From Pyropia yezoensis (taxonomy: Eukaryota > Rhodophyta > Bangiophyceae > Bangiales > Bangiaceae): a stretch of DNA of 64,000 nucleotides. A model generated the notes under the pieces. The model saw only the letters and a list, made by a program, of their open reading frames with translations. It was not told where the DNA came from and made no database searches. Below, piece by piece: positions 11,016 through 31,839 of the stretch. A program made the translations under genes and the position numbers. The DNA is taken from contig CM020619.1 in NCBI GenBank assembly GCA_009829735.1, positions 13,879,777 through 13,943,776 on the forward strand, read 5' to 3'. Position 1 is the first letter of the stretch. The number at the start of each line of letters is the position of its first letter.

Positions 11016-11051
<36 letters not shown>

Positions 11052-11269
11052 TCCCCTCCTCTGAAGTCCCCCCAGCACACGGCGTGCGCGCCCCATGCAG
11101 GCCCACACACCGCACGTGCACGGATGTGGCGCGGCTGCAGGTGCGTTGCACCGCGGCCTGGGTCCGCCAGGACAAACAATGTCAGCGGTCCGGCTGAAGG
11201 GGGGGCCTCGGGATAGAGCGGGGGGGGGGGGGGGGGGGCAGTCCGGCCGTGCGGGTGCATCATGGTCAG
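10698..11269. other. Intergenic region with 34-nt poly(C)
   Basis: No gene is supported. It contains a 48-bp tandem duplication (listed separately), an uninterrupted C run at 11017-11050, and a G run of about 17 nt near 11221-11238. It separates the Ulp1-like gene from the left inverted repeat of the large element. Confidence 0.45.
10858..10953 (+). repeat. Tandem duplication, 48-bp unit, 2 copies
   Basis: Copies start at 10858 and 10906 and share TCCGGAGCACAGTCGTACCA (first copy CCCGGAG...). The unit differs at only a few positions, so the duplication is recent. Its function is unknown. Confidence 0.85.
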
Positions 11270-11338
11270 CATCGATTGTTGTATTTTAACGTGCTTTGTT
11301 ATCGATTGTTGTATTTAATGTGCTTGATTTTAATTACC
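11270..11338 (+). repeat. AT-rich direct repeat at the left flank of the large element
   Basis: ATCGATTGTTGTATTT occurs at about 11270 and 11301, each followed by AA(C/T)GTGCTT. The block is strikingly AT-rich in a GC-rich setting. It ends in TTTTAATTACC, directly abutting the left inverted repeat. AT-rich sequence with TCAATTA also abuts the two right-hand repeats (29110 and 31970), which would fit an AT-rich insertion preference. Confidence 0.6.
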
Positions 11339-11664
11339 GTGGCGACCTCCACCGACTGCCACGTCCCGGGTGGCCGGTGCACGCATAATGGATATGCGGC
11401 GACCCGGCCGACGTGGCAGTTGGTGGACCTCCACCAACTGCCACGTTCGTCGCTGACTGCCACGTCCCGGGTGGCCGGTGCACGCATAATGGATATGCGG
11501 CGACCCGGCCGACGTGGCAGTTGGTGGACCTCCACCAACTGTCACGTTCACCGCTGACTGCCACATCCCGGGTGGCCGGTGCGCGCATAATGGATATGCG
11601 GCGACCCGGCCGGGTGGGGATCCGGCCAGCCGCGTCCGCCAAAGACTTTGCCGTGGGCGGCTCT
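11339..11664 (+). repeat. Left inverted repeat of the large element, with 101-bp tandem subrepeats
   Basis: The sequence from GTGGCGACCTCCACCG through CCGTGGGCGGCTC is the reverse complement of 28951-29099. Common blocks include GCATAATGGATATGCGGCGA and GGGATCCGGCCAGCC. Within it a 101-bp unit starts at 11354, 11455 and (partial) 11556. Each inter-unit junction carries a 36-nt near-perfect palindrome, with 17-bp arms at 11411-11427 and 11430-11446 and a 2-nt centre; the second copy lies near 11512-11547 with a mismatch. Terminal iterated palindromes are typical transposase-binding architecture. Confidence 0.85.
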
Positions 11665-12241
11665 CCGCCTGCGGTTGCCCGCGGACGTGGACAAGGTCGG
11701 GTCCCGCCCCCCCCCCCCCAGGAAGTGTCGGCAGACGGTTCGGCTTGCAGACGGGCCCTTCCTGCCCCCCCCTTTCCCCTCACCCCCCCTCCCCCCACCC
11801 CTCCCGCCACCCCTCCCCCGCCCCGCCCCTCCCTCGCCACCCTGCCCAGCCCCGCTCCCCGTGTCAAGCCCCGAACCCATCGCGTTTGTCATTGCAGCTC
11901 AAAGCGAGCTCCCGTTGGGAATGAGGTCGTGTGGCACTGAATGGAGCTGACCCACGTACGCGACGCGCCGCTTCCCCTGCCCTCCCCCCCCACAACTCCA
12001 CACTCAACCCTAACCCCCCTCTCCGCATGTTCGTCCCAGCACCCGTCATAGGCCCCACCGCGCGCCGCCGGTACTGTCATTCAGCGCCACTTGGTGCTCG
12101 CAACGCCCAAGCCACTGCCCCGGTAGCGGTGACAGTACAAGTGAGCATGCGTGGCCACTGGGTGTGGTGGCCGGGAATAAAAGCCCCCCCGATGCTCGGT
12201 CGGTGAGCCGGCGGGGCTGCACCCGTGGTCGGGCCGCGGCC
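11665..12241. other. Intergenic region inside the element
   Basis: This stretch lies between the left inverted repeat and the 3' end of the methyltransferase-SET gene. It is C-rich (11700-11850 consists largely of CCC/CCT runs). No supported gene is seen. It presumably contains the 3' UTR of the minus-strand gene. Confidence 0.4.
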
Positions 12242-15200
12242 TCACTCGTGAATGGGCGCAAACGTGTGGGGCGTGCTGCGCCGGTTGTCGGCTTCGGTCC
12301 GCTCCCGGTTTCTGTCCGCGTTTGTGTGGCGAACAGTGGTCTGCCTTGTTGCACTGCCCCGCCGGCGGCTCGTGCTGCTGCCGCTGCCGCCGTCGCGGAC
12401 CGATGCGCCAGCGCGGTCGCCGTCGTACATGGCTTGTCTGATGTCTGTGGTCAACCACCGGTAGGACGTACCGTAATCAGTACGCAGTTCCTCCCCCTGG
12501 CCTATGTCCCGCGTGGCGACAAGGGCGATGACCCTCGGCTTCACGAGCTCCGACAGAGTCGGGTCTTGGCCGTGAGCGCCGGGACACCTGACACTCATTT
12601 CGACATTGACATCCTGGCCGCCCAAACCAGCACCCACAACAGCTGCAGAGCAGTCGCGGGCAGCACCAACAGCAGCAGCAGCAGTGGAATCTACAGCAAC
12701 ACTCGCAACACCCTTGCGTGTAACACCGCCCGGTGGTCGCCCGGCAGAAGGCAAAAGCGCCGCCGCCTCGGGAGCCTGCTGCACGGCCAAGAAGCTCTTG
12801 GCCGTGGCTGCCCCAACTTGCTGCTCCAGTCGTGTCTGCCGGCGCCCGTCATTGACCAGGCCCGCCACACACCAGGCAGTGTACGCGAAAGTCGCCGAGG
12901 CGGCGACAGCGGAGCCATAGTGTACCCGGCTCTTGCGCGCACGGAGCGGCCGGTCCTCGTCCTCGTCGACGATTTCTTCGCCCAGCCCCTCCCGAGCTCG
13001 GCCCTGCTCCTCTTGCGCCTCCGCGCCGTCACGCTCGTGTTGCTGCTTTTGCTGCTGCGGGCCGCCCGGGTGCTGCTGCTGCTGTCGCTGTTGTCCCATT
13101 CGGAGTCGCCCCGTTGTCCCCCGCTGCCCTTCGTCTCCTTCCATGCTTCCTTCAGGTCGAATATGGACCTTGACGGCGTTCTCGGAAACCGCCTTGGACG
13201 TAGGTCCCAAGGCCCCCAGTGTCGGCGACGCGAACCCGTCGGTCCTTGTCATACCACGTTTGGCCAGGTTACATGTGGTCAGCGCGCCGTAGACAGGGCA
13301 AATCGTATCGCCCTTTCGGAACCGGCGTCCAGCAAACAAGCCGCTCCCGGCGGTGCCTCCCGCAACGCGCGAATGTGCGACAACGACGCCGTAGTGAGCG
13401 GCCTCCACAGCCAGCATCAGCTCGTGGTCCTCCACCGCAAGGCGAGCAACGAGGTCAGAAGGCCAGTCTCCCACACTACACCCGCCGAGTCCAATGACCA
13501 CTCCGCCGACCTCAGCTCCGCCCACAGGCGCGCGGGGGTGCGTGTGGTACCCCGCCGTTCGCTCGTTATCATTTTGTGCGGCCCACCGGTTGGCAAGCAG
13601 GAGGAGCATGTGTGCTGGCAGGGCCGTGAAGCACGGCTGGCCGGGCACGCGCGCCCAGGCAGCGGCTGTCGTTTGAAAGGACAGCGCCAGCAGCAGCGGG
13701 GCGGTCTTGGCCACGATCAGGTCATCAGCACCTTCACCAGCACCTTCATCAGCACCTGTCGCATCGACGGTGGCGGCCTCATTGGCTGCCAGCACCTCTC
13801 GCGCAGCGTGCACCACCTCTGCAGTAACGTCGGGCCACGACCGGAAGCCGCCGCTAACAACCTGGTCGACAAACTCTCGGAACAGGCGTGGCTGTGACGC
13901 TGCAATGACGGCCGGGTCGCTGTCGGCACAAACAACGCGCCGATGCTGGCCGCTGGGCATCCTGATCGCGGCCATCGCGGTGGAGCGCGTGCCCGCAAAC
14001 ATGTCGAGGACGAGGTCGTCCGCATTGGACATTCGCATGACCAACTCGGACAGGAAGAGGACAGACTTCTGCTCGCTTCGGACGCGTGGCGCAAGGGCGC
14101 GCGGGCGTGTCTTGCGGTGAGCAGGGCGAAAAGGAGGACACAATGGTGAAGTCTGCTGCTGCTGCGGCTGCTGCAGCTCCTTCTGACGCTGCTGCACAGA
14201 GGAGGTGGGATGCGGCGGGCAGCGCGGCTTGGCCAGCTTGGACGGAGCACCGGCGTCCAACGCACGCGGAGTACCCACGCGTCGGCCAGCGCGAGGCGGG
14301 ACGTCGTCGGGAGCACCCCCCGACGCCCCCGCCGAGGCGGTGGGGGCAGCACCACCACCACCCGCACGTGCGCGTGCACGCGCAATGCCTCGACCGGCAC
14401 CGCCTCCCCGTTCTAGGGGGCGTGCCCCGCGCTTCGTGCGTCTTTGAGGGCCCAGGCTCCAGTTCACGCCGCTTCCGTCGTCGTCGACGTCGCCGTCATC
14501 GTCCGTGTCGTCCTGGTCGTCCTGGTCGCCGCCCTCCGTGTCGGAGCCGTCGGCAACGTCGCTATCCATATCGTCGTCGTCGCCAACATCATCGTTGGGG
14601 TCAGGCACTTCTCCGTCGTCGTCGGCCCCGTCGTCGGAGCCGCACGGCGTATTGTCCCCGTCTCTGTCCGTATTCTCATTGTTGCTGTCGCCGCCGCCCC
14701 CGCTCCCGCCGTCGGTGTCCCGCCGCACGGTGCTCTGCCGCTGCTCCTGCTGCCGCAGCTTACCAACTAATTCTCTCAGCCCCGGCGTCCAGCGAAGGAC
14801 CTCGACATCCCGCAGGGGAACCACGTTGTCAATGACGTTGTGGTGCGCTGGGAAGCGCGACGGGACGGCGTTGAACGTGCGGTAATTGACAGCCCGGTAG
14901 GCTGCCGCGGCGGGCGCTCCGTTCCTGGTCGCGTGGAGCACGTACTGGGACCGGTTGGTCATCATCGTCGACGACCTTCTTGTCGTTGCCCACGCGTTGG
15001 GCGCCAAAAGGGCCAACAGGGGGCACGATTCCACCTGAAAAACGGGCGTAGCTCGCCGTCGTCGTTTTCGCTGCCGTGGTTCTCTTACAGAAGGTTCCCA
15101 GCCGCCCTGTCCGCCACCGCCACTGCCACGGTTGGGGTCACGACCCCCGCCGCTACCGGCAGCTGAGCGGTCGGCCGTCCTTGGCGGACCTGTGGTCGTA

Positions 15201-18200
15201 GCGGCGACCGCACCGTCGGGCGCATCAGGGGCAGCACCCGTTGCAGCCCCTGCCTCAGCAGCAGCCGCACGTTGACCCCCCGACACTGGTTCCTCCCCAC
15301 TGCCCGGAGCAGCAGCTACGGCTGCTGCCTTGTCACCATCCGTCGGCGGGAGTGGGTCCTTCAACTCGATCAGATGCGTCACCCACAGCGGGAACTGCAT
15401 CGGGCTGCAAAATAGTAGCACGTGCCCACCAGGACGAACCCAGTCGTGTATCCGCGACACGGTCTTCTTCAGCACGTCCTCCGACAGGTTGTCGTAATGA
15501 GAGTTGGGCATTGCATGTAGACGGCGGGTGTTGTAAGGGGGGTCGGACAGCACGAGCTGTACAGCGCCACGCAGGTCGGGGCCAATGCGGCAAGCATCAC
15601 ATCCTCCGATGCGGCTGCTGCTGCTGCTGCTGCTGCTGCGGGCACCCTCGTTGGCGGCGCTGTGGGTGTTGTCGAGGTCCCCCACGTCGCACACATGCGT
15701 TTGCACAATGGCACGCATGGCCGTCTGCACAGTGCGGATGTGACGGGCCAACGGGTGGTCGTCGTTGGTGACAGGCCTGCAACTCCCCAACGCAGCCGCA
15801 GAGCCGCCCTCGGTGCCAGGCACTGGCTGAGAGAGCACTGGTGACCCCCCGGCTACGGACGCCGCTCGTCTGGCCGGCGCTGTTGGTGCTGCTGATGGTA
15901 CAGGCGATCGTGCTGCCGGCTGCGCCCTCAACGCTGCTGCCGGTGCTTTTCGTGCTGCTTGTGCTGCTCGCGGTCCTGGCTGGCCTTGCCCCCCAGCGGC
16001 ATTGACGGGCGTGGCACGCCCACCACCCACGCCGCCGCCGTCGTCCTCGTCGTCACACACACGGGGAGCGGCATGTGTTGCAACAGCAGCAGCAGCGACA
16101 GGCGTGCCACCCCGGTGTATGTCCGCAGCCAACGCCGCACGCGCTGCGGCGATGCCTGCGTCGCGCGCAAGAGCGCGGTTCACCAGGCTCACACGAGCGC
16201 CTGCGTCCTCCACGCGACAAGCACGCATCCTCCCGGGGGCGCCCCCCCCCCCCCCCGCCCCCCCCTCCTCCGCGGTGGCCGGCGTCGCAGGCGGGATGGT
16301 GCCCATCGCTGCTGCCCCCGCGGCATCGACGACGACGGGCCGAAAGCCGGTTAGGCCTCGGACGGTCGGGTTTAGCACTGAAGGCACCCCAACCACCTCC
16401 CACGGACAGCGTGCTGCCAGTCCTCTGCCCACAAATGCAGCGGCTGTCAAATAGCCCGGCTTTATTTCCCCATTGACGGCAGCAGGAAGCGCGTCAACCG
16501 CCGACGCAGCCGACGCCGGTGGTGGAGCACCCGCCGCCGTGGCCGTGGCTGGGCAAGAAGGCGCTTGCAGATGCTGTCCTTGCTGCGGCTGGCCCCGCTG
16601 CGGCTGCTGCATTGCAGTTGTTCCCAACAGAGCGGCTGCCGCGTCGGCGAGTCGCTCGGGCTTCGTCACCTCCCCCATGTGGTAGACAAAATGAGCAGCA
16701 GCCATGCGGAGCTGTGCATCCGTGATGGCGGTGCGGTGCAGTGCCTCTGTACAGATGGGAGTCCCGTCCCTGTCGGCCTTGGAAGTTGGGGGGGGGAGCC
16801 CGTGGGCAATGTCAAACCGCTGCGCAGCGGGCGCGAATACGCCGGCAGTACCTTGCGGTTCTGACAGCGTCGTAAACGCGCACGACCGTGAGTGCCACAA
16901 GAGGTACGGGGGGAGGCAGTTCTCGATGCTTTCAAAGCCGATGTGCCTTGCGACGGCATCCCAGGAGCGCACGACGGCAGTCACAGCACATCGAACGGTG
17001 GCGCTGAGTGCCAACAAGGCGAGCCACTCCCGGTGCGCAGCGCACGCGTCGTCAGCACCCTGTTCAGGGCTGCTTGGGACGCCCGTACCCCCAACGGCGG
17101 AACGAGGACGCTTTCGCCCATGTGGGGTAGGCTCAGCTCCGGCAGCGGCAGCAGCGGACGCGCAGGCCCACCATGACGAAGAGGCCTTCCTGCGCCCGTC
17201 GCTGTGTACCGCAGGCGCGGCGATTGGTGGTGGAAGTGTGCCTTGCAGCTTGCGGGTCGGTGTCGATGACGGGCGCGCGGGGCGGGATGGTAGTGTTGTT
17301 GGCTGCTGCCGCTGTGGTGCAAGCCGCCGCCGCTCTTCCGCGTCGGCGGCAACAAGCGGGTGCAGCGAGGAGAGCCACAGTAAGAGCTCGAAAGGCTCCG
17401 TCTCGGCAGCAGCCTGCAGTCGCTCACAACGACAGGGCTGGCGTTCGGCGGCAGAGTCGCTGGCGCTGCCAGCACACATGCCGCCATCAACGGCACCACA
17501 GCCGCGTTCAAAGGTGGTGGTGCCGAGGGCGCCCTCCAGAATGGCTATAAGAAACCGCTTGTCTGGCGTCAGCACGCCCACTCGCTGCAGGCCACGGGCA
17601 GCGCCCCGGCGAAAGGTCTGCCACCCCGGCCGGCCGGGCAGTGGCAACGGCTGCGGCGACGCCAAGCGCGAGCGCTGCGACGTCACAAAAGACGCGTGGT
17701 GCGGACCGGTCGAGTGTGGCACATGCCGACCCTGTCCGGGACCAGGGCGATGCAGAACGGGCGGCGCGGCGCGTCCTGTGGTTTGTTCCTGACCGGCTGT
17801 GTTTGTCTCTTGCCTGGCTGGGCACGCGGCGCTTTCCGCAGCGGCTGCATACGCCGCGGTACGCGAAACTTCCTCCCCATGCCCGCAGCCAGCCGCGTGC
17901 CTGGCACATGCGTCCCGATGACGTAAGCTCGCGGCCAGGGCGGCCACGTCCAAGGCAGCTTCTTTCAGCGTCCCAACGTCAAGGACCGCTTGCCACACCC
18001 GGACGTCAACCGACGGGTCGCCCGACGTACAATCAACAACAGCAACGTTTGTCTGTCGTATTTTGTCGTCGTCGTGGTTGGCGTCTGTCATGTGGACGAC
18101 ACAGCCGGGCAGTCCGCGGGTCTCTTCTTCGTGCAGCGGCGGTGGCAGTGGCCGTCGCGTCGGCGACTGCAACTGCGGCGTCGGCCGCGTCGGCGGTGAC

Positions 18201-19342
18201 ACGTCCACACGCCCGGAGCGGAGGGCGAGCACGCGGAGCCACACGGATGACGGGCGGGGACGCCGCCCGCGCGCGTCCCCGCCGCCCCCGCCGCCGAGCG
18301 GGGGCAAAGACACAAACCGCTTGAGGACCCACACCGCACTGTACATGCGCTTGATGTGGGAACCCTCCATCCACCACGTCAGCGGCGTGTGAAGCACGCG
18401 GCCCGACGTCGGGGACGTACCGGCAACAGCATTTTCGGCCTCGGGAGGCCAATCAGACCACGAGAGGGGCGGCCGCTGCTGCTGATGGTGCTGCTGCTGG
18501 CCTTGGACGGCGAGCCGAGGAGGGGGGCGCGTGAGCGTGATGGCCCACAGCTTGACCGCCGGCCACGTCGCGTCCTCGAGTGTCGCATCGGCCGAACGGG
18601 GTGCGGCCACTCTTGGAGCCGTACTGTTATCACGTCCACACGCTGACCGCACAGCAGCAGCTACCGGGCCGCCCCCATTGCCGTCGGGGTCCAACTTCAC
18701 AATGCGCACCTTGTCCAGCACAAACAGGTCGCGCAACGCGGCGAGGCCGACAGTGATAGCGCGGGCGGGATATGCGTCGTGCACGTCCATGCATGCAAAA
18801 GGGGAAGGCCGGCAACCACATCCGCCCTGAAAGTCCAGCCCGCCACCATCGCCGCCGCCGCCGCCGCCGCCGCCGCCGGTTGTCCCGCGCCGCTCATCGT
18901 CTCGGACAGCGTTTGGCGCCCCGGCGCGCCGCTTTGTCGGGCGCCTCGCCGCGGTAGCGGGCTGGTTGCCACGATCCTCCACAGGCCCAGACCTCTTGCC
19001 GCCGGCACCGCGTTCGGTCCCGGTGGCCGTTGCGCCGCCAATTGCAGTGGCGGCGGTGTCAGCGGCGGGGGCGTCCGCCCCATCACCGGCGGCGTCCACC
19101 TCGGCCTCAGCGCAAGCGGTGACGATGCGCGTGACGCTGAGGACGAGCCACGAGGGTGGCAAAAGGTCGGCCATGCGGGCAGCCGGGCTTGCACTCGGAG
19201 CCACGGCGCGGGTGAAGCTCCGCAAACGATCGCGGTCAGTTCCGCGTCGCAGTCCGGTGGGTCGTGTGCACTGCAGCCACACACGGACAGAGTGTCGGGG
19301 TCGACCGACATTGGGCGCGCTTCTGTGTAGCCGCAAGTTCAT
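12242..19342 (-). CDS. DNA N6-adenine/N4-cytosine methyltransferase fused to a SET domain
   Basis: The product is about 2,366 residues from the ATG at 19342; an alternative ATG at 19174 (MADLLPPSW) gives 2,310. The N-terminal 1,200 residues are mostly low complexity with ordered islands. LVLSDPPYNT (D1267; bases 15527-15544) is catalytic motif IV of amino-methyltransferases, followed by VRPGGHVLLFCSP. After an acidic Asp/Glu-rich insert of about 500 residues, LDMFAG (D1780) is AdoMet motif I, followed by ADSDP. Motif IV before motif I is the beta-class order. At about residue 2000, GSGLFAGRRFRKGD starts a SET domain. CVAGLVND replaces the usual NHSC-type motif, and ATRDIGQGEELRTDYG (about 2270-2290) is the SET C-terminal signature. 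It likely methylates DNA and possibly a protein such as histone. DIRS elements also carry Dam-like enzymes, but I see no SET fusion there from memory. It ends in TGA. Confidence 0.88.
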   Translation of the reverse strand: MNLRLHRSAPNVGRPRHSVRVWLQCTRPTGLRRGTDRDRLRSFTRAVAPSASPAARMADLLPPSWLVLSVTRIVTACAEAEVDAAGDGADAPAADTAATAIGGATATGTERGAGGKRSGPVEDRGNQPATAARRPTKRRAGAPNAVRDDERRGTTGGGGGGGGGDGGGLDFQGGCGCRPSPFACMDVHDAYPARAITVGLAALRDLFVLDKVRIVKLDPDGNGGGPVAAAVRSACGRDNSTAPRVAAPRSADATLEDATWPAVKLWAITLTRPPPRLAVQGQQQHHQQQRPPLSWSDWPPEAENAVAGTSPTSGRVLHTPLTWWMEGSHIKRMYSAVWVLKRFVSLPPLGGGGGGDARGRRPRPSSVWLRVLALRSGRVDVSPPTRPTPQLQSPTRRPLPPPLHEEETRGLPGCVVHMTDANHDDDKIRQTNVAVVDCTSGDPSVDVRVWQAVLDVGTLKEAALDVAALAASLRHRDACARHAAGCGHGEEVSRTAAYAAAAESAACPARQETNTAGQEQTTGRAAPPVLHRPGPGQGRHVPHSTGPHHASFVTSQRSRLASPQPLPLPGRPGWQTFRRGAARGLQRVGVLTPDKRFLIAILEGALGTTTFERGCGAVDGGMCAGSASDSAAERQPCRCERLQAAAETEPFELLLWLSSLHPLVAADAEERRRLAPQRQQPTTLPSRPARPSSTPTRKLQGTLPPPIAAPAVHSDGRRKASSSWWACASAAAAAGAEPTPHGRKRPRSAVGGTGVPSSPEQGADDACAAHREWLALLALSATVRCAVTAVVRSWDAVARHIGFESIENCLPPYLLWHSRSCAFTTLSEPQGTAGVFAPAAQRFDIAHGLPPPTSKADRDGTPICTEALHRTAITDAQLRMAAAHFVYHMGEVTKPERLADAAAALLGTTAMQQPQRGQPQQGQHLQAPSCPATATAAGAPPPASAASAVDALPAAVNGEIKPGYLTAAAFVGRGLAARCPWEVVGVPSVLNPTVRGLTGFRPVVVDAAGAAAMGTIPPATPATAEEGGAGGGGGAPGRMRACRVEDAGARVSLVNRALARDAGIAAARAALAADIHRGGTPVAAAAVATHAAPRVCDDEDDGGGVGGGRATPVNAAGGQGQPGPRAAQAARKAPAAALRAQPAARSPVPSAAPTAPARRAASVAGGSPVLSQPVPGTEGGSAAALGSCRPVTNDDHPLARHIRTVQTAMRAIVQTHVCDVGDLDNTHSAANEGARSSSSSSSSRIGGCDACRIGPDLRGAVQLVLSDPPYNTRRLHAMPNSHYDNLSEDVLKKTVSRIHDWVRPGGHVLLFCSPMQFPLWVTHLIELKDPLPPTDGDKAAAVAAAPGSGEEPVSGGQRAAAAEAGAATGAAPDAPDGAVAATTTGPPRTADRSAAGSGGGRDPNRGSGGGGQGGWEPSVREPRQRKRRRRATPVFQVESCPLLALLAPNAWATTRRSSTMMTNRSQYVLHATRNGAPAAAAYRAVNYRTFNAVPSRFPAHHNVIDNVVPLRDVEVLRWTPGLRELVGKLRQQEQRQSTVRRDTDGGSGGGGDSNNENTDRDGDNTPCGSDDGADDDGEVPDPNDDVGDDDDMDSDVADGSDTEGGDQDDQDDTDDDGDVDDDGSGVNWSLGPQRRTKRGARPLERGGGAGRGIARARARAGGGGAAPTASAGASGGAPDDVPPRAGRRVGTPRALDAGAPSKLAKPRCPPHPTSSVQQRQKELQQPQQQQTSPLCPPFRPAHRKTRPRALAPRVRSEQKSVLFLSELVMRMSNADDLVLDMFAGTRSTAMAAIRMPSGQHRRVVCADSDPAVIAASQPRLFREFVDQVVSGGFRSWPDVTAEVVHAAREVLAANEAATVDATGADEGAGEGADDLIVAKTAPLLLALSFQTTAAAWARVPGQPCFTALPAHMLLLLANRWAAQNDNERTAGYHTHPRAPVGGAEVGGVVIGLGGCSVGDWPSDLVARLAVEDHELMLAVEAAHYGVVVAHSRVAGGTAGSGLFAGRRFRKGDTICPVYGALTTCNLAKRGMTRTDGFASPTLGALGPTSKAVSENAVKVHIRPEGSMEGDEGQRGTTGRLRMGQQRQQQQHPGGPQQQKQQHERDGAEAQEEQGRAREGLGEEIVDEDEDRPLRARKSRVHYGSAVAASATFAYTAWCVAGLVNDGRRQTRLEQQVGAATAKSFLAVQQAPEAAALLPSAGRPPGGVTRKGVASVAVDSTAAAAVGAARDCSAAVVGAGLGGQDVNVEMSVRCPGAHGQDPTLSELVKPRVIALVATRDIGQGEELRTDYGTSYRWLTTDIRQAMYDGDRAGASVRDGGSGSSTSRRRGSATRQTTVRHTNADRNRERTEADNRRSTPHTFAPIHE

Positions 19343-19690
19343 ACATTCAAAACAGAATGCACTTGTCAATCGATATCTATCCTGTGCGGCGTCACTGTAT
19401 CAAGAAAGATATCCATACGTGTACTGAATGGGAATTGAAACCGACGAGTACGTACAGGGCAGCTGTGTGATGTTCCCAGGTTTGCGCCCTCGGCGACCCT
19501 GCCACCCACGCACCCCCCCGTCATCCCCCCCGCACCGTCGTTCAAACACAGGAAACAAACAAATGCAAAACAGAAAACAGCACCACTCCCCACGACCACC
19601 ACTGCCACACAAACTAGCTTCCCCTGGCATCCCACATGTCACCAGACACACTCCCTGCGCGACCGCCAGAGGCCCATGCGGTCGCCTTTT
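19343..19690. promoter_or_regulatory. Spacer between oxygenase and methyltransferase genes
   Basis: This spacer is AT-richer than average. It probably contains the 5' UTR or promoter of the methyltransferase-SET gene and the 3' end of the oxygenase frame. On the minus strand a pyrimidine-rich stretch ending TTGATACAG (about 19396-19412) could be a 3' splice site. No motif is decisive. Confidence 0.3.
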
Positions 19691-20116
19691 TCAAATCGGG
19701 CGCCTCTTGGAAGGACCTCCATCCGCCGGCCGGCCGAAGCCGGTCCGTGACATAGGCCGCCCCGTGTCCCCGTCCCTCTCATCGTCCTCACGTGGGCGCT
19801 TTCTTCCGCCACTACCACCACCGAGTCGACGACCACCATCCTCGGTGCGGCGACCACCACCTCCTCGGGCACTGTCGCCACCAGCACTCGCGCTCCGGCC
19901 TTCCCCTTTGTCGAGGCCGTCCCCCCGGACGCCGGGTCGCAATCGGGCACCATGCCCAGGGCGACCGGCCAGGCTACTCGCACCGCTGCCTCCATCGCCG
20001 CGGCCACGACCGGAACTGGCGCGCACGCTACCGTGACTGACACCTCCAGACGCCAGACGAGCGACTCTAGTCGCCGGGCCGGTGCCACCACCATCGGAGC
20101 GGGAGCTACCACCGCG

Positions 20117-20151
<35 letters not shown>

Positions 20152-22075
20152 GGCTGCCACTGGGACCTCCACCACTACCAGGCGGGTGCCTCTGAGCAAG
20201 AGGAGGGGGGCGACGCCCAACTCTGTCACGGTCGGCGGCAATTCTGGCGGCAAGGCTCGCAGAGAGTGCGGCGGTGTCCAGCGGCGGGGCACGACTCGGT
20301 GGCTTTGTGGCACCCCGTCGGCTTTGTGGTGGTCGCGAAGGTGTTCTCGTTGAAGGGGTGAGGGCGGATGCCGGCGAAGGCCGTCGTCCGGGGAGTCCGG
20401 GACGCTGCGGTGGCCCCGTTGCCGGCGTCGTCCCGGTCACAGACGTGGACGTTGCTGCTCGCCGGGGTGTCGTTGAGCTTTCTAGTGCGCGGGCCTCGGG
20501 CCCGGGCCGTGGGGTCCGCCGCCGTGCTACACTCGACGGCACCACGACGGACGGCTGGCTGCTGTCTCTGGCTCTACCGCCGCTGCCGCCGCCGCCGCGG
20601 CCACCGCCGCCGCTGACGGCGCGGGATGATTGCGGCGGCGCTGCTGTTCGCCCTTTGCTCTTGGCACGACCAACAGCTGAGGTCACAAGTTGGGCGCCAG
20701 GACTCCTGTCGCCGACACGCCCGCCTGTTCCGTCAGCGGCGCCGAGGACGAACTCGCTTACGCTGTCACTGTTGCTGCCGTCGTCGCTGCCGCCGTCGCC
20801 GTCACTGTCGCCGTCACTGTCGTTGTCACTGTCGCCGTCACTGTCGCCGTCACTGCCACCGTCGCTGCCGCCGTCGCTGCCGCCGCCCCTGTTGCTGTCG
20901 CTGTCGCTGCTGACACCACTGCCGCCGCCCCTGTTGCTGTCGCTGTCGCTGCTGACGCCACTGCCGCTGTCGCTGCCGCTGTCGCTGCCGACGTCGCTGC
21001 CGACGTCGCTGCCGACGCCACTGCCGACGCCACTGCCGCTGTCGCTGCTGCTGTCGCTGCCGCTGTAGCTGCCGACGTCGCTGCCGACGCCACTGCCGCT
21101 ATCGCTGCCGACGTCGCTGCCGACGCCACTGCCGCTGTCGCTGCCGCTGTCGCTGCCGACGTCGCTGCCGACGTCGCTGCCGCTGTCGCCGTCTCCGTCG
21201 CCGTCACCGTCGCCACCCTTGTTTTCGGGGACAGGCTGGCCGCAGTCGGTGCACCGGCCGCGCTCACGGAGACGGCGGGGGGCTGCCACGTCATCGGGGG
21301 AGAGAAACACGCCTGGACGTAGAGGCAGAAGCACTGCATCGTACAGCGGGTCGTCCTCGTGCTGCAGGTACATGTGGAGGCGGATGCTGCGCGGGTAACT
21401 CACTTCCGCGAGGGCCTTGTGCGCTCGCCACACGTCATCCTTGGCGCCTGTGCCGCAGTGCACAAGTTCACTGCGAACAATGATGAAAGAGTTGGGCGGC
21501 ACGACCAACGTCATGGGCATTACCAATTGGTCCCGTAAGGTGGGGTCGTCGGCTTCCCGCTGCAAGGCCAGCACGCTTCCCGGCCAGACGCGCAGAGAAA
21601 ACGCGTCTGCCCCAGACGCAAGAGCAAAAAAACTTCTCGTCAGAGACATCTCGTACACAGGATCAGAGACCAGCTGCACGTCAATGCCAGTGTCCTCCTC
21701 GTCGTCATCGGCGTATTTGCCATCATCGTCACTTGTGCCGCTGGCACCAAGCGCCCCGTGCGAGGAGGAGCCCTTGCGACGCTCGCTCCCGCCCGGCCCA
21801 CCACCGCCGCGGCCACCGCGGCGACGCTGTCGACACTCGGCGGACGACCAAACGGGCAAGTCCACGTGCGGGACATGTGCACTGCACCGGCAGTCGTCAG
21901 CAGTACCCTCGAGCCCGTCCGAGGAGCACGAACGCGAAGCGGTGGCAGTGCGTCGTCTCGGCTGCCGACAAAGTGCTGCTAGGTAGGCCCGGGGACGGGC
22001 CGCGTGGACGTGGCGGGAATCAGGTTTCGACCAGGCCGGGCGTAGGGCAGCTGCGAGTGCTCGCGGCGTGCCGCC
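19691..22075 (-). CDS. 2-oxoglutarate/Fe(II)-dependent oxygenase, entered by frame change
   Basis: The open frame has no ATG near its start and overlaps the 3' end of the preceding ORF by about 100 nt, in the -1 frame. HVPHVDLPVW (bases about 21850-21880) supplies the HxD iron ligands. VPPNSFIIVRSELVHCGTG supplies the distal His (21449-21460). SIRLHMYLQ supplies the 2OG-binding Arg (21380-21382). This HxD...H...R spacing fits the double-stranded beta-helix fold. A Cys pair follows (RCTDCGQ). The C-terminal half is a Ser-Asp-Gly repeat from an 18-bp-like tandem array, then Arg/Pro/Ser-rich tail. The substrate is unknown; next to a DNA methyltransferase, oxidation of a methylated base is an attractive inference (TET/JBP- or AlkB-like), not shown. 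A short intron could also explain the frame change. Confidence 0.62.
20755..21215 (-). repeat. Coding Ser-Asp-Gly tandem repeat
   Basis: Degenerate GTCGCTGCCG(A/C)(C/T) units of 6/12/18 bp run through this segment. On the minus strand they encode alternating (S/G)-(D/G) dipeptides and hexapeptides such as GSDVGSDSGSD. Length stays in frame, consistent with a flexible acidic tail of the oxygenase. The C-terminal boundary of the ordered domain lies just before it. Confidence 0.75.
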
Positions 22076-24609
22076 TCAACCCTCTGAAGGCCGCGAAGGA
22101 CCTTGTTCGCCAGGGCCACCATACCCACATCAGCCGCCGACTTGCACAGGTACAGGCTGTGACGCTCGTTGTCGTCTGAGCTGCAGAGCGCGTCCACCCC
22201 TACGGTTAGCTGGCCATGCCCTTTGCTCGTGAACTTGCGGTCCAGCGAATCAATGTTGGTGTTGATGATGGGCGACCACAGGTCATCCACGTGCAGCCCC
22301 CCGTCGTCTGCACCGGGGGGTGTATCACCCGCAACAGTACCGCGACCCCCAGCAGCGACGCGACCAGTGTCGCCCTTCCGACTGCGCCTTGCACTGCCAC
22401 CCCGCCGCTGCCCCTGCTTGGCCCGTCTCGCCAGCTCTGCCTCCCCAGGAAACCTGCGCATGAGCTCGTGCAGCGTCGCGTCCACAACGCTCAACACCCG
22501 TCCCGCCGTCCCCGTGCCCGACTCCGCCCTAGGGCGGGCTTGCAGCCGCGACGGCTGCCCCGCCGCCGCATGGATACCGCCGCCACCCCCACAGCCGCCC
22601 CCGCCGTCGTCGTCGGCCATGTGCATGACAGGCATACCTACGGCCGTGGCGCCATGGAGAATCGCCCAGCCGCGCTCAAAAAGCTCGGTCGCAAGCACTG
22701 ACGCGGCCGTCGTCTCCAAAATGGACAAGACTTCCTTGGGCCAGCCCGACGACATGACGTTTTTGTCGGCCTTGGCGCCCAGCGCAACCCGTGCGCCCGC
22801 GTTGACCATGTACGCCTTCGCCCGGTCGTCCGCGTCGTACCAGACGCCCAGCTCCAGAAAGTCCCGCGCCTGGTGCTCCAGCGGCAACAGCGCCGCAAAT
22901 GGAGGCAGCACCTCTCCCCGCGGCGCCGGCGGTGGCGCCACGCGCGCGTCCTCCTGCTCCTCCTCGTCAGCAGCTGCAGCACCAGTAGCAGCCACCGCCA
23001 AGCGCGGCGGTGGTAGAGGGCAACCAAGCGCCGCCCGCCTCGCAGTAGCGTCGAGTGCTCGGGAGGCCGCCACTGGCGGCACCGTATCGGTGTACGGCCG
23101 GGTCAAAGGGTCTACCCCACCGCCGCCCGAGAGAGCACGCCCTGCTTCTTCGGGGCTTCCACCCACTTGGTTCTTGTCCGCGCCACGCGTGGCCTTGCTG
23201 GATCCGCGCGGCGTGCGCTTGGACCCCCCGTCGCTCTTGCCGGCCACGTTGGCGGTCGCCTTGGCCTGCGGGCGGCGCGCACGGTTGGAGCGCGCTTTAT
23301 TCTTGGTCAGTGGTCTGGACGCACCACCGCCGCCGTGTGCCGCCCCCGCCACGGACGCTTGTCGCGTCGCCCGATTAACGGCGCTGCGGGCGTGGCGCCT
23401 CCGAAATGGGGTGGCCGACGTCAAGCCATCCGCCGGCCCACCACTACCACCCGCAGCAGCGGCAGCGGCAGCGACAGCTACAGGGGCAGCGGCAGCGGCA
23501 GCGGCAGCGGCAGCGGCAGCGGCAGCGGCGGCGGCAGCGGCAGCGGCACGAGCACCTGCACGGGGACCGGCACCGGCAGCCTCAGCCGCAGCCGCAGCAG
23601 CCGCCAACGCGCTCGCTGCTGTATCCGTGACTTCTGCGACGGCTGCTGCCGGCACCGCCGGCGCTGCTGGTGCGGGTGCTGCTGGTGAGGGTGCTGCTGG
23701 TGCGGGTGCTGCTGGTGCGGGTGCTGCCGGTGTTGGTTCTGGTGCTGCTGGTGTTGGTGCTGCATGTGCTGGTTCGGGTGCTGCAGGTGTTGGTTCGGGT
23801 GCTGCTGCCGCTGCTGCTGCTGCTGCTGCACGCACACCTGCAGCAGAACCAGCACCCTCACTTGCCGGACCAGAAACGGCACCTGCACCGGCACTGGCAC
23901 CGGAATCGGCAGCAGCAGCCGTAACCGCAGCCGCAGTACCCTCCAAGGCGCTCGCAGCTGTTCCTCTGGCTTCTGTCTCGGCTGCACGCGATGATGCTGT
24001 TGCTGTTGTTGCCTCCGGTACGGTTGGCGGTACTGCTGCCGGTGCTGCTGCCGGTGCTGCTGCCGGTGCTGCTGCTGGTGCTGCGGGCGCATCCTCGGCA
24101 TTCGCAGGTGCCTCCGGCGGTTTGGCCTACAGACCCCGTGTCGGCGACTGGGCCGGCGGCGGTGAGGACGGTGCTGACCGCAACTGGTCGTCTACCTGCG
24201 TCAAAACGGCGGGAACGAGCGGCCGCCGCACCGTCTCCACGGGCGTCTCAAAACAGTCCGACCGCGAGGCCGCGGCTTCGCCGAAGCCGTGGCTCTTGTC
24301 GTGTCCACCACCGCCACAGTCCGCCTCGTCACGATCTCTGGCGTCGCCGTCATACCGCTGGGTGTCATTGGCGGCCCCCTTATTGCCGCCGACGTCAGCA
24401 TTCACAACGGGAATGACAGTGACCTGGGGCTGCTGCTGCTGCACCGGCCGCACCTGGCCTGCAGTTGCTTTGGCAGCGGCCGCAGCGGCAGCGGTCGCCA
24501 CAATGTCCTTTGCAATTGTGCTCGTCGGCGGCGGCGGTGGTGGTGGCGGCGGCTCTGTCTTGGCAAACGCGTCAAAGTCCTTGGCCCACGCAGCAAAGTG
24601 GACAGTCAT
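21979..24609 (-). CDS. Ala-rich ORF upstream of the oxygenase, one in-frame TAG
   Basis: The frame spans 877 codons from ATG 24609, read continuously except for a single TAG at 24127-24129. The first 160 codons start MTVHFAAWAKDFDAFAKTE and look protein-like. The middle is poly-Ala and (Ala-Pro)n repeats. The C-terminal 300 residues are ordered, including LATELFERGWAILHGATA, LWSPIINTNIDSLDRKFTSKG and VGMVALANKVLRGLQ. The ERGWAILHG segment resembles the N-terminal strand of 2OG oxygenases. The ORF therefore probably supplies the front part of the oxygenase completed in the -1 frame at 22075-19691. Its ATG overlaps the stop of the ParB-like gene (ATGA). It may encode a separate protein or the first part of a fused product. 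The TAG may be a mutation or part of an intron. Confidence 0.55.
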
Positions 24610-26001
24610 AAACGGCCGATGACGAACTTGGGCACCATCCCTCCCGCCTCCGTGTTGTATGACAGTCTTGCGCTGCCCAGTGGTTTGTTAACTCTCTCCA
24701 CCGTGGCCATCATTTCTTCGCACGTGTAGTGGCGTACGAAAACGCCGATCAACTCGTGCCGAAGCGTCAGCGAGCGGCCCGGCCGGCGCTGCTGCAGCAC
24801 TTGCAAGGCCGACGCCGCCTTGTCGTCGAGGGCGAGTTGTGCGTGGCGTGCATGAAACGACTTTGCCTCCGCAGTCGCCGAGGTCGTCTGCACCTTGGCG
24901 ACCGTTGCAGGCTGCACGCGCCCATCCCCCTCCTCCCCCTCCCCCGTGGTGTGTGGCTCGTGCTGCTTATGCTGCTCCAATCCATCACAGGTGATCCCAT
25001 ACAAGCGCTTAGCGGTGACCGTGTTGATGACGTGCATGATGAAAATCAATACGCACCAGTAAAACGGGCTGTCCGCGCCCCGAGTCAGACGGTTCATGCG
25101 GCCGTCTGCTGTGAACCCCGCGGACCACGCCAAAGACGTATCGACCATGAGCACACGTGCAGAGTTCCTCTCAGCTGGCGGCACTCCGGGAAGATGGAGG
25201 AACGGGATGGACCCAAGTGTCCCAAACACGAGCGTCCTGTTCGCGCGCTGGCGCAGTTGCTTGCCTCGGCCGTCACGGGCGGGTCGCTTGCCACAGTCAC
25301 GTGAACCGCCATCGACGCCGTCGACGCCATCGTGATCGTCGGAATCGTAACAGTCGTCGTCGTCTTCATCGTCGTCGTTGTCGTCCCCGCCACTGACAGG
25401 GCCGCGGGCGACACGCGCGGCACGACGTCGCACACCGCGGGGCTCACGAGAGCGAGCCGCAGCAGCACCCCCGGCGGCACAGTTCCTGTCCTTGGCGGCG
25501 GCTTCCTCCTGCAGCTTGGTGACAATGTGCTCGATGGACTCGCGCTCTGTCACGGCAGCGGCACCCAAGCTGAGCAGCTTACGCAGGGACTCGTCTCCCA
25601 ACTCCATTTGTGTTGTGATGCTACGGGGCACCGCCCCATGCGAGCGTGCTTCCTTGATGAGCAAGCCAACAGCCTTCGCCAGGTCCGCTTGCGGCATGCC
25701 CGGTGTGATGCCGTGGTACGCGCTGGCCAGTGAGGTGTCGTTGGGCGCCGTCACCCACCCAATGGCCCAAGTGAGCTGGTCACGCGCACTCATCGGCTCT
25801 GTGCGCACCGTGACAAAGTTGGCGGCGCCGCCCAGGACGATAATGTCCGTCCTGGACAGTGGCCGCCCGTCACGACGGGATACGACAGCAAAGAGCTCCG
25901 ACGCTCGCGAGAGTGGGTGACGCTCGTTCAGGTGACGCATCAAGGCAGTATACCGGTGGTAACCATCAATGAGCCAGTACCGTTTTCGGCGTTGACCGCC
26001 G

Positions 26002-26040
<39 letters not shown>

Positions 26041-26606
26041 GGGTCCTTCTCAAAGTCATCCCCGCCTTGTTCGCACACGCGTAGGGAGCCTGTTACCCAG
26101 CAGTAGCCCGTCTGCTTAAACTGTTCGTAGTACAAGCCTATGACGAAGGCCCGTGACGCGCGCACACCCTCGCCAAGCATGTCAATGTCTCGAAGGGACA
26201 CCGACTCTTGAACCGTGCAAAACGGGGATATAGGGCCGTCGGCGGGCGCGGCGTCGGGCCCGTCCGTGATCCGCCACGGTGGCGGACGATCGTCCGGGGG
26301 AGTCCCCGGACGTTCGTCACCTTGGACGGTACCGGCTCCGTCGTCGCCGCCAAAACAGGAGCTGCTCATCCCGTCCGGCTCCGGCTCGTCCACCCCACCG
26401 GGCTGCGGCTGCGTCAACGGCGGTACCGGTACCGAAGTCGAGTCGTCACGACCGTCGAGGTCGCCAAAGTCCAGCAGAGCGTCGTCGTAGCTCAGCGACG
26501 GTGTGGCCTCCCGGCCGTTGTCCTCGACGTCCATGTCGTCCGCGAGGGGCGGACTGGCCGCCCCAACGGAAGGCGGAGGGGATGGCGGGGGGTCAGAACA
26601 CTCCAT
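24606..26606 (-). CDS. ParB/sulfiredoxin-fold protein
   Basis: The product is 666 residues. The start at 26606 (MECSDPPPS) is chosen because a truncated paralogue at 32428 begins similarly (MDRSD) and because sequence upstream is a poly(G) run. After an acidic Pro-rich leader, VQESVSLRDIDMLGEG...FKQTGYCW...GSLRVC leads to YWLIDGYHRYTALMRHL (about 25946-25985). This is the GxHR box that ParB-N/sulfiredoxin domains use for nucleotide binding. A helical region follows (residues about 270-390), then an acidic/His linker, and a C-terminal domain of unknown type containing MVDTSLAWSAGFTADGRMNRL and FYWCVLIFIMHVINTV. ParB-like domains can be CTPases, nucleases or DNA-binding factors. It is first in the minus-strand cassette, and its stop overlaps the next start. 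Confidence 0.7.
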
Positions 26607-28950
26607 ACCTGACCCCGGCGCAGAGCCCAGCGTATAACAAGGGCACTCGGTCGTCCGTGCCGCGCGTGGGGTGACGGAGGCCGGCGTCGTTGGCGGGGGG
26701 GGGGGGGGGGGGGGGGGGGAGGTTGTTTGTCCTCGAGGTCGGGGGCAAAGAATGTTGAATGGCAACCCGGAAGGCGGCGTCGGGGGGTCGACAGATGGGT
26801 GCGGGGGGGGTGGGGAGGGCGGTGCGCGAAAGGGAGAGGGGGCGGAGAGGGTGTGTGAATAGGGGAGATTGGGCCGGTGGCAGTGAAATGGGTCGCGTCT
26901 CGATCCCGCGACACGACCGCGGCCCAGACACGAGAACTAGAGCAGGGGGGGGGGGGGGGGGGGGACGTCACGCCGATGGTGGCAGGAAGCACCCCCCGGA
27001 AGAGGGGAGCGGGGCGAGGACGAGGAGCCGCGTGCCTCGGCGCCCACGCACAGGAAGGGAAGGGGTGGGGGGAGGGGGGCGGGCGGGGTCGTGCCACGTC
27101 AGAAGCCCTCGGGTTCGTGCGTTTTTTGCCGGTGACAGCAAGCGGGGCACGTGCGCTGCCAGTGTGTGTGTGTGGAATCCGCAGGCACGCGCCAGTTGGA
27201 TATACAAAATGGAACGAATGGTTTCCCACCAGGACGGTGCGGCCCGTCCAACGCGTGCACCGTCGGTTCAATTTAATGCACTTTTTGAGCAACGCCTTTT
27301 GTCGTGACGGTCCTCGTGAATGATTTGACAAGCGAATATGTACCAGTTTCGCCGACGGGCCATTTGGTGTTGGCAGTCGCACGTGCAACGGGCCGTGCAA
27401 GCCGCGTTGCCAGTCAAATCGGCCGTCTGTTAGGGACATGGTGTGAGACCCGCTGCGCTGGCCCTCGCCGGCTGCGGCGCCCGGATGCAGCTGCGACGCC
27501 CGGCGCCTGGTCGCCTGCCTAGCGCTGCCGCCCTTCCCGCCCACGCCTCAGCTGCCGCCGCCCTTTCCCCCAATGCCACAGCTGCCCCCCCCCTGCCGCC
27601 CATGCCGTCGCTGTCAACGTCCACAACGCTGGCGGCGGCAGCAGCAGCGGCGGCAGCCGCCACAGCTGCGTCACGTGGTGCTACTCCCGCTGCCGCTGCG
27701 GCGGCACGGGCTGCGCTTGCCGCGTGGCGCGCTGACCCTCGGATGGGGATGGCGGCGGCGATTGAGGCTATGCGGGAAGAGCTCCCCCCGGGGTTGCCGG
27801 CGGGCTCTCCCAGTAGCATCCGTGCCGGACTCGCCCCTGGACTCCCCGCAGGGTTTCCTGTCGGCTTCCCGGGGGGGTTCTGGACCGCCTCCCCAGGGGG
27901 GTTCCCGTGAGGTTTCCTGGCGGGTCCCTTCTCAGGCCTGGCAAGCCTACCTGGCATGGCCGGCGGCGGTGGCGGCGGCGATGTCGGCGGCGGTGGCAGA
28001 GGTGGTGGGCTCCGCGCCGGCATTGGCATTGGCGCGGGCCCCATGGCAGCGGTAGCGGGGACCTAGGGGAGGGACACCATCGTGGTCGCTGACTATGTGC
28101 ATCCTTCTGTGGCAACCGATAGCGGGCTGGTGGCGTTTGTGCGCGGTGGGGGCGCGGGGGTGGCGGCGGCTGCTGTGGAGCGGCAGTTGACTTTTTCAGG
28201 TGGCTGTGCCGGCTGTGGCGGCTGCTCGTGTGGGCTGCCCGGGGGGGGGGGGGGGGGGGGGCTGCGGCCTGCGATTGCCTGGGCTTCCGCTGGGATGAGA
28301 GCGGCGGGAGGAAGCGCGTCGCTGCCGGGGGGGGGTCTCTGAATACGTCATGGCAAAGGAGTTTGTGCTGAAAGTGGGCTTTTGGGTGTCCCCACCCGTC
28401 GGGGGGGGAGGAGAAACAGGAAGGTGGATGGCCGCGAGGGGTGGGCTCGGGGGATTGCGCGGCCACCGGCGACGCCCGTGCCGCCGACGGAGAACTACTC
28501 TGGCGATGATGGCGCTACCCACCCCTTTCCTCCATAAAAGACCGCCGCGCCCGTACTCCGCCCGCCCAACCGCGAACCGTCCACCCCGTCTGCACCGCAA
28601 CGCTCCACACCTCCACGCCAAATGCAAGCATTCCCCCACTGACATGCACGCAACCCAGCAGCCGTCACAACCCACACCACCTGGGAAATGGGGAGGGGGG
28701 GGGGGGGGGGGGGGGGGGGGTGGAGCGGGCAAAGCAGGGCAGAAGATCTGCGGTCGCGAGTGGTGGGCGCGACTCAGGGGGGGGGGGGGGGGGGGGGGGG
28801 GCGACGCGTCAACAGCGGCACCAGCACGGCTGGAAAAACCGCACCGGCGGTGCGGGCGGGCGCCCCCCTCCCCAGAAGGAGGAGGCGGCGCGCACGGTGG
28901 GATGGACGTATCGCCACACCGCGCGGAATCCCCGCTCGCGGGCGCATGCG
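26607..28950. other. Non-coding or weakly coding region right of the ParB-like gene
   Basis: G runs lie at about 26695-26720, 26945-26964, 28240-28261, 28694-28722 and 28779-28801. Between 27430 and 28044 both strands are open. The plus frame 27443-27910 starts with ATG and encodes Ala-rich then GFPxGFP-like repeats; the minus frame 28044-27430 is Pro/Gly/Ala-rich. Neither has a recognisable domain, so I do not call a gene. A promoter for the ParB-like gene should lie in 26.6-27.4 kb. Confidence 0.35.
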
Positions 28951-29099
28951 GGGAGCCGCCCACGGCAAAGTCTTTCACGGACGCGGCTGGCCGGATCCCC
29001 ACCCGGCCGGGTCGCCGCATATCCATTATGCGTGCACCGGCCACCCGGGACGTGGCAGTCGGTGGAGGCGACGGACGTGGCAGTCGGTGGTGGCGACGG
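28951..29099 (-). repeat. Right inverted repeat (copy R1) of the large element
   Basis: It is the reverse complement of the left repeat from the shared CCGCCCACGGCAAAGTCTTT block through GGATCCCCACCCGGCCGGGT to CGTGGCAGTCGGTGG. The last box occurs twice at the outer edge (about 29050-29068 and 29073-29092). It matches the left end more closely than R2 does, so it is taken as the partner. Confidence 0.85.
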
Positions 29100-29440
29100 T
29101 AGTTGTATCAATTAACATTACAGCAGTCCTTTCTTCATTGATTGTCAAGTCTCGTTACTGTAGGACGGACTGTGAGGGGAGGGCGTGGGGGGGTGGGCGT
29201 GGGGGTATTCCCGTCAACACGAACAACACGAGCAACACGAGCACCACGTCCGACACGTGCAGCGCCGGCGTGGGCCCCTCAAATTGGATTTGAAATCGCT
29301 CAAGTCCCGAGTCCATAATAGACCAAGCCTGGCCGTCAGCGCACAGCCACCGGCCTGAGCCGCGTCACGCACGAGTGTCGGCGCCGTTCTTCTCGTACCC
29401 GCCCGGACCCGCCCCCCCCCCCGCCACCCTCCTCACCCAT
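29100..29440 (+). repeat. Outer flank of R1, duplicated beside R2
   Basis: The sequence outside R1 is related to that outside R2 (31963-32340). Shared blocks are ATCAATTA next to the repeat, CCCGTCAAC with repeated (A)ACACGAGCA units, CACGTGCAGCGCC, and CCTGAGCCGC(G/C)TCACGC. The order is conserved while intervals differ. The duplicated unit is therefore larger than the inverted repeat itself. Confidence 0.65.
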
Positions 29441-31729: not shown

Positions 31730-31839
31730 GGTCACGACGAGAACCCCCCGCCCGCCGCGCAGGGACAGTGCACACAAGGAAGGGTACGAGGGACATGGGA
31801 CAAGGCTACAATGCCAAGAGGGAGCGCGGCCGCTTGCGG

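Follow-up and report, generated by a model that had tools for sequence, protein, structure and literature searches.

What kind of unit brings together, in one stretch of a red-algal genome, genes for a DNA methyltransferase joined to a SET domain, a possible 2-oxoglutarate (2OG)/Fe(II) oxygenase, and a ParB-like protein? The stretch, here called the window, comprises 64,000 nucleotides of Pyropia yezoensis (nori) contig CM020619.1 (assembly GCA_009829735.1, positions 13,879,777 to 13,943,776, forward strand). A preliminary description had assigned these genes to a mobile unit of 17.8 kb framed by inverted repeats. Using searches of the P. yezoensis assembly (107 Mb in 11 contigs, with three large contigs of 43.6, 34.3, and 29.4 Mb), we are confident that these genes lie instead in the interior of a giant mobile element of approximately 50 kb, one of a family with dozens of copies. 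This element is probably a DNA transposon with a Fanzor-like gene, and it perhaps marks or protects its own chromatin.

The inverted repeats near 11.35 to 11.68 kb and 28.93 to 29.07 kb are real. One pair of arms (11551-11684 and 28932-29065) has 90% identity over 134 nt, and a second (11346-11410 and 29004-29068) has 100% identity over 65 nt. The left repeat is a tandem array of 101-bp units starting at 11354, 11455, and 11556; folded as DNA, one such unit has a z score of -5.8. A third copy of the repeat lies at 31839-31953.

1-34417, no strand: part of the giant element inside the window (left-end mapping, shared DNA, right limit)
11354-11684, forward strand: internal palindromic repeat array, the left "inverted repeat" (repeat search, homology, fold z score)
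28932-29080, reverse strand: internal repeat, the right "inverted repeat" (repeat search)
31838-31954, reverse strand: third internal repeat copy (repeat search)

These repeats are internal and are not the ends of the element, because homology in other copies runs through both of them. The left repeat used as a query gave 46 matches in its own genome, and the DNA on both of its sides (about 11000-11410 and beyond 11703) matched at nine other loci with 87 to 95% identity. Past the right repeat, homology continued in two other copies to window position 34417 (89 to 97% identity, with gaps), a stretch that includes the short-protein genes and the third repeat copy. A transposon of 17.8 kb bounded by the repeats at 11.3 and 29.1 kb would account for their inverted arrangement and for a pair that is kept in the window and in at least three other loci. 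However, homology crosses both supposed borders, and the repeat core occurs one to three times as an exact copy per fetched piece of other copies, between genes and at differing positions. We therefore regard such a unit as almost certainly not the explanation, and both the size and the boundaries first proposed for it were wrong.

The actual ends lie elsewhere. By walking leftward in steps and searching each stretch against the genome, we mapped the left end to L050:4747, which corresponds to C2:13864523, 15,254 bp to the left of window base 1. At this end, 39 other places start no more than 11 bases from the mapped base, at query positions 60 to 78 and mostly at 68 (among the best 40 of 132 candidates). 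On the right, copies continue for about 600 bp past the equivalent of position 34417. In six of them (L033, L039 to L042, and L046), the final letters are ...CCACCAGGATAACT or differ from it by one base, with unrelated DNA directly after. The 21-mer of the right end had 50 matches in the genome with up to two mismatches, compared with none for a reversed control. The terminal sequences read (A)ACT-ATCGGTTAAACCCCTCCGGGAAACA on the left and ...CCTTTCCCCACCAGGATA-ACT on the right. Among 10 paired copies that were read, all had ACT at both junctions between otherwise unrelated flanks, and eight had an extra A before the left ACT. Nine showed no duplication besides ACT, and the remaining one had a 5-bp match beyond it. 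The left junction of the window copy itself reads ACA. By eye, an inverse similar block is present at both ends, GGTT(A/G)A(A/G)CCCC..CGGGAAACA; at the inner ends, the inverse block reads GGTTAAACCCCTCCGGGAAACA and GGTTGAGCCCC-CGGGAAACA. Simple terminal inverted repeats were considered and rejected, as no inverted version of the right end turned up on the left side of the copies that were read.

The two ends also pair in a consistent manner. For 15 of 40 left ends, a correctly oriented right end (of 50) was found 20 to 70 kb away, and in 10 of these 15 cases the distance was 45 to 60 kb. When the range was 20 to 140 kb, 23 of the 40 left ends had such a partner. Right ends in the opposite orientation were absent at 20 to 70 kb, and none lay on the wrong side. 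Random placement (2,000 trials) yielded a mean of 0.49 and a maximum of 4 pairs at 20 to 70 kb, and a mean of 1.16 and a maximum of 6 at 20 to 140 kb. One collinear series of markers, for example, runs for 63 kb from C2:19584848 to 19521827. Separately, a pair of outward-facing right ends (C3:15909683 on the reverse strand and C3:15920191 on the forward strand), 10.5 kb from each other, may represent a short derivative with two identical ends.

The window copy extends from C2:13864523 to window position 34417 (49,671 bp). Shared with other copies are L050, L029, and window positions 1-6940, 6196-12300, 12300-26900, and 27892-34417, with gaps. The block of methyltransferase-SET, 2OG-like, and ParB-like genes is found again at C1:34.84-34.87 Mb, collinear and in three pieces, and at C1:21.77/21.79 Mb, where it is split and inverted; as only the best 6 of 1,033 candidates are considered here, any count of copies with the whole block is a minimum. 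With this block recurring and the repeat pair kept at other loci, the earlier view of a mobile, multicopy unit with this gene set is upheld. Some copies (L049, L009, and L048; C1:19.30 and C3:19.69 Mb) contain an extra stretch of about 10 kb with a short-protein gene, an internal repeat, and a segment of gene E, so the gene set differs between copies.

From left to right, and with names that are partly tentative, the open reading frames (ORFs) of the element encode a TnpB/Fanzor-like protein, a UPF1-like SF1 helicase, two proteins without a Pfam match, a PIN-like protein, a C48 protease, the methyltransferase-SET fusion, a 2OG-like protein, a ParB-like protein, and short proteins, followed by the right end.

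L050:4932-9944, reverse strand: TnpB/Fanzor-like ORF (motifs; TNB zinc domain below cutoff), its 3' end facing the left terminus
L029:2281-5316, reverse strand: UPF1/IGHMBP2-type SF1 helicase (AAA_11/AAA_12)
L029:4922-6796 and L029:7015-9372, reverse strand: two ORFs without a match in the Pfam scan
2410-7431, reverse strand: gene E, Ala-rich, with a PIN/NYN-like C terminus (PIN_11, E = 0.035, below cutoff), shared with copies
8268-10697, forward strand: Ulp1/C48-type cysteine protease (Peptidase_C48, 51 bits; cutoff, 20.7)
12245-19399, reverse strand: putative DNA methyltransferase (beta class, DPPY) fused to a divergent SET domain (Pfam, alignment, profile search)
19694-22075, reverse strand: C-terminal part of the 2OG-like gene (distal His within 21452-21472 and Arg motif at 21365-21394, by eye)
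21982-24126, reverse strand: Ala-rich ORF, possible N-terminal exon of the 2OG/Fe(II) oxygenase-like gene (HVD within 22282-22296, by eye)
24609-26936, reverse strand: predicted ParB-like DNA-binding protein (phrog_1033 ParB, E = 0.052; LIDGYHRY at 25950-25973)
29322-30353, forward strand: short protein SP1, 53% identical to SP2 over 211 residues
31076-31963, reverse strand: short protein SP2 (comparison with SP1)
32263-33099, forward strand: possible second, shorter ParB-like ORF (one weak 20-residue match to the ParB-like protein, E = 2e-5 in a single comparison)

Based on its motifs, the gene at the left end is likely to be Fanzor-like. DPGRS is present in all five aligned sequences, namely, this ORF and P0006 to P0009, of which P0006 and P0008 come from P. 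yezoensis itself. DEFNTS.AC..CH occurs in this ORF, P0007, and P0008, and P0006 ends before the motif. We take DPGRS, DEFNTS..C..C, and NRD..A..N to be RuvC-type and zinc ribbon motifs. At the position of the zinc motif, Cas12f1-like_TNB (PF07282) matched below its cutoff (E = 0.0097 to 0.06), with no match in P0007 or P0009. Furthermore, the left-terminal 237 nt fold with a z score of -6.75 in the direction in which the Fanzor-like gene would be transcribed. In comparison, 48 interior windows had a mean of -0.22 and a minimum of -3.58, and the right end was near 0. An Rfam search at the gathering threshold gave nothing useful. The guide RNAs of TnpB and Fanzor are located at the end of the element, and the duplicated site can form part of them (PMC10711439; here and below, papers are cited for the portions of their text that were available). 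The structured left terminus would fit a guide RNA, and DNA palindromes serving transposition would fold likewise.

The methyltransferase-SET fusion is supported by alignment and profile searches, its SET part less firmly. N6_N4_Mtase scored 33.3 bits in the window ORF against a Pfam cutoff of 26.7, and SET scored just below its cutoff (19.9 versus 22.4 bits). Among relatives, SET was above the cutoff in P0001 (22.6) and P0004 (23.6), below it in P0003 (15.6), and without a Pfam match in P0002 and P0005. Five database proteins align with METHYLTRANSFERASE-SET: P0001 at 93 to 95% identity and the other four at 34 to 46% locally and 35 to 40% overall. The D-P-P-Y-N, F-x-G-T, and D-Y-G-x-x-Y columns are invariant in the six aligned sequences, as is the tail TPHTF. 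Searched against PDB, the six-sequence profile matched the adenine methyltransferase DpnA (E = 3e-9) and, in two C-terminal parts, KMT2C, EZH2, and SETD8 (E = 0.0086 to 0.1, with KMT2C at 0.0086). Motif IV (DPPY) precedes motif I (FxGT), an order that we take to indicate the beta class, and the usual NHxC of SET presumably corresponds to a VND-like sequence in the fusion. N6A enzymes are described as having DPPY, and most N4C enzymes as having SPPY (PMC8885841).

The remaining genes are characterized to varying degrees. The helicase has an IGHMBP2-type match that scores below the cutoff of that family, and the DNA bearing it is common to 21 other places at 87 to 96% identity (best 22 of 142 candidates). 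The C48 region (7158-10732) is 96% identical to copy D. Because the HxD motif lies in ORF 21982-24126 and the distal His and Arg lie in ORF 19694-22075, what had been described as a 2OG gene and an Ala-rich ORF may together form a single gene with two exons. Neither ORF matched a 2OG family hidden Markov model at the cutoff, and the ParB-like ORF likewise had no family match at the cutoff. One library scan of the 2OG- and ParB-like ORFs gave just low-complexity MSCRAMM matches far below the cutoff. Homologs of the ParB-like protein were absent at an E value of 0.001 among 7,999 candidates scored. Searches of PDB with single element proteins gave nothing useful, and those of bacterial collections gave nothing informative. 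Thus, of the minus-strand cassette in the preliminary description, the gene set is present and the methyltransferase is above its cutoff, but the 2OG and ParB assignments consist of motifs read by eye.

On its right side, the window copy is joined to another repeat.

34379-34417, forward strand: last homologous bases, an AATAACC...GGTTATT hairpin (comparison with other copies)
34427-36253, forward strand: long terminal repeat (LTR)-type repeat, either interrupting the right end of the window copy or standing in its place (907-bp repeat)

Several pairs of the 907-bp repeat were found, with about 6.6 kb between the two members. Position 34417 was considered as the true right end and rejected, as it is the junction with this LTR-type repeat in the window copy and in one other, at C1:28.77 Mb. 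The junction (window 34427-36253; C1:28766932-28768787) begins 10 bp after the point of right-end loss. Since the two copies share it and are 97.7% identical over 3.3 kb, they probably descend from one already damaged copy. This suggests that the damaged copy was duplicated, or that it moved without a normal right end.

The surroundings of the window copy contain other genes and repeats. Lipase-like genes flank the insertion on both sides (L050:2910-4193, reverse strand, with GHSLGG by eye; window 36991-38766, forward strand, Lipase_3), and the element may therefore have split a host lipase cluster. Outside the element, a PIF/Harbinger-type transposase gene lies at 41933-43876 (forward strand; Plant_tran, 174.8 bits), and the repeat around its start (40285-42000) is found in seven other places. 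A tandem array of units of about 60 bp, with 14 copies in register, occupies 48069-49147. Farther out, a candidate Crypton-like tyrosine recombinase (59630-61888, reverse strand; NDC10_II and GCR1_C matches, both below cutoff) lies beside an ORF at 61910-62692 (reverse strand).

How might such an element work? Insertion at (A)ACT would be carried out by a recombinase or a strictly site-selecting transposase too diverged for recognition. The Fanzor-like nuclease, together with a structured RNA from the left end, could aid the copying or retention of the element, as TnpB does for insertion sequence (IS) elements. Element DNA would receive a DNA mark of the adenine type, and possibly a histone mark as well, from the methyltransferase-SET protein; the 2OG protein would modify or remove a mark; and the ParB-like protein would bind the 101-bp palindromic repeats between the genes. 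We offer the self-marking of element chromatin only tentatively, as an idea compatible with the genes. A bolder and rather doubtful proposal is that the element represents a new superfamily, in which ACT integration by an unrecognized enzyme is combined with guidance or retention by a Fanzor-type RNA-guided nuclease and with a complete chromatin kit that marks element DNA and thereby shields it against host silencing or against the nuclease that the element itself encodes. The kit in that proposal would consist of an adenine-type DNA methyltransferase fused to a histone methyltransferase, a 2OG protein that erases or modifies a mark, and a ParB-like protein together with the palindromic repeats to which it binds.

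Several observations weigh against a giant Fanzor-like transposon. Seventeen of the 40 left ends lack a right-end partner at 20 to 140 kb, two have one in the opposite orientation within that range, and the window copy lacks the usual right 600 bp or so, which are not in the window. With Pfam, phmmer searches using the local Crypton-like ORF, and motifs, we found no transposase, recombinase, or HUH endonuclease in the element, small exons not all being scanned; as far as scanned, the earlier remark that no recognized transposase lies inside holds for the larger unit too. Specifically, phmmer with the Crypton-like ORF matched none of 578 ORFs of at least 50 amino acids, and a motif scan for tyrosine recombinases found none among those of at least 150 amino acids. 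The Fanzor step is also weakened, because P0009 has Lys at the position of the presumed catalytic Glu and because the left-end DNA folds on the other strand too (z = -8.0). In addition, the NRD..A..NMAW motif was found just in this ORF and P0007, the Fanzor-like profile found no Fanzor or TnpB in PDB, and both AlphaFold models, one of them of the Fanzor-like protein, were unusable (mean predicted local distance difference test [pLDDT] scores of 37 and 33).

The state of the copies belongs to the same side. The helicase frame is interrupted by a stop in the window copy, and stops occur among copies in all examined ORFs except 19694-22075. Differences between copies are spread evenly over the three codon positions, and nonsynonymous differences are 2.4 to 3.0 times as numerous as synonymous ones in the methyltransferase-SET, C48, 2OG-like, and ParB-like ORFs; in these counts and in those for CpG, some fetched loci overlap and their differences are counted more than once. 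Given the stops and the lack of codon-position bias, individual copies are, by these comparisons, decaying neutrally, and present activity is therefore not supported. Because of this decay, we infer the gene functions, and the conserved active-site motifs become visible just in comparison with proteins of 35 to 40% identity. CpG decay as a sign of host silencing by 5-methylcytosine was considered and rejected: CpG transitions (593; 284 + 309) were in no clear excess over those at CpC/GpG (525; 322 + 203).

Other explanations would account for parts of these data. The element could consist of two or more mobile modules, a left one with the Fanzor-like gene and a right one, that insert together or recombine. 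The left 5.3 kb (L050:4747-10000) are 92 to 96% identical in 25 places (best 25 of 1,051 candidates), whereas the block at L029:8600-9900 is just 77 to 78% identical in some of the same copies (e.g., C3:20.29 and C1:35.22), which hints at module exchange or gene conversion. Six diverged copies begin exactly at query position 101 of that block, a point that could be a joint between modules. Nevertheless, left and right ends are paired in a single orientation, about 50 kb apart, much more often than expected by chance, and ACT stands at both outer junctions, although no search aimed at inner ends was made. We consider separate modules improbable.

Less probable still is an endogenous large DNA virus or an element derived from one, even though Fanzor, C48 proteases, DNA methyltransferases, SF1 helicases, and ParB-like proteins all occur in large DNA viruses. 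The ORFs scanned, with small exons left out, contained no capsid, DNA polymerase, packaging, or primase family, and the ends are uniform with ACT. Moreover, the methyltransferase-SET query had a 63-residue match in IMG/VR, at two or more loci, and the Fanzor-like query matched none of 53 stretches. The enzymes could also belong to a host epigenetic gene cluster that was segmentally duplicated without being mobile. They are indeed unusual as cargo, and the copies have diverged neutrally. Yet dozens of ends are dispersed over three chromosomes, with sharp limits and unrelated flanks, and we give this explanation next to no weight. A giant DNA transposon accordingly remains our preferred explanation.

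We found no account of this element family in the literature searched, which included available text of the P. yezoensis genome paper (PMC7423979), where mainly LTR repeats are reported; subscription papers and reports of repeat libraries lie beyond that coverage, and an earlier entry is possible. The same literature contained no transposon with a methyltransferase-SET fusion in the portions covered. Giant multigene transposons are established in fungi, and the nori element would extend them to red algae, with a family in a crop seaweed. A writer of DNA marks fused to a chromatin writer, accompanied by a possible eraser, raises the question of whether mobile elements can bring their own chromatin state. 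A methyltransferase carried together with a TnpB/Fanzor-like nuclease could also point to a eukaryotic system of self-versus-target protection.

Among known systems, some were set aside as classes for the nori element. Polinton/Maverick elements would have PolB, a retroviral-type integrase, and long terminal inverted repeats; the scanned ORFs had no PolB or integrase match, and the copies read had no such repeats. Regarding Helitrons, the helicase is of the UPF1/IGHMBP2 type and not Pif1, and just three chance-looking H-x-H strings were found. The Crypton-like ORF at 59630-61888 was rejected as the mobilizer, being outside the element and having no relative inside. CACTA (En/Spm) elements make 3-bp duplications; that assignment was rejected too, as the ends differ and the triplet is invariably ACT (10/10) and not variable. 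Unlike the CACTA elements of Chondrus, the nori element ends in ACTATCGG and, inverted, AGTTATCC, and no CACTA transposase was found. Like them, it is an enlarged multi-ORF DNA transposon in a red alga with a 3-bp repeat; the Chondrus families are enlarged to 16 to 20 kb (review, PMC6431247).

Closer likenesses concern the cargo and the end gene. As in Fanzor-carrying eukaryotic transposons (PMC3627910 and PMC10711439), the 3' end of the gene is at the element end and the terminus is structured; viral Mariner elements with a methyltransferase have also been reported (PMC3627910). In contrast to the red-algal Fanzor element CMe-1A of Cyanidioschyzon, which in the text available is about 3 kb, the nori element is about 50 kb and has helicase, SET, 2OG-like, and ParB-like genes and no recognized transposase. 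In bdelloid rotifers, N4CMT, which has an SPPY motif and a chromodomain, is encoded by the host and acts against transposons (PMC8885841). Like N4CMT, the nori fusion joins a bacterial-type amino-methyltransferase to a eukaryotic chromatin domain, but it has DPPY, a SET partner, and a place inside a transposon. KDZ transposons with TET/JBP and DIRS elements with a Dam-like methylase carry a single modification gene. The nori element resembles them as a transposon with a DNA-modification gene and differs in that theirs is a single gene and their transposition enzymes are different. Fungal Starships have short direct repeats at their junctions, and the nori element is similar in being a very large single unit with many cargo genes, defined ends, and short junction repeats. 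Starships carry a tyrosine-recombinase captain as their first gene (PMC11623301). In the nori element, by contrast, no captain is recognized, the gene at the end is TnpB/Fanzor-like, and the host is a red alga.

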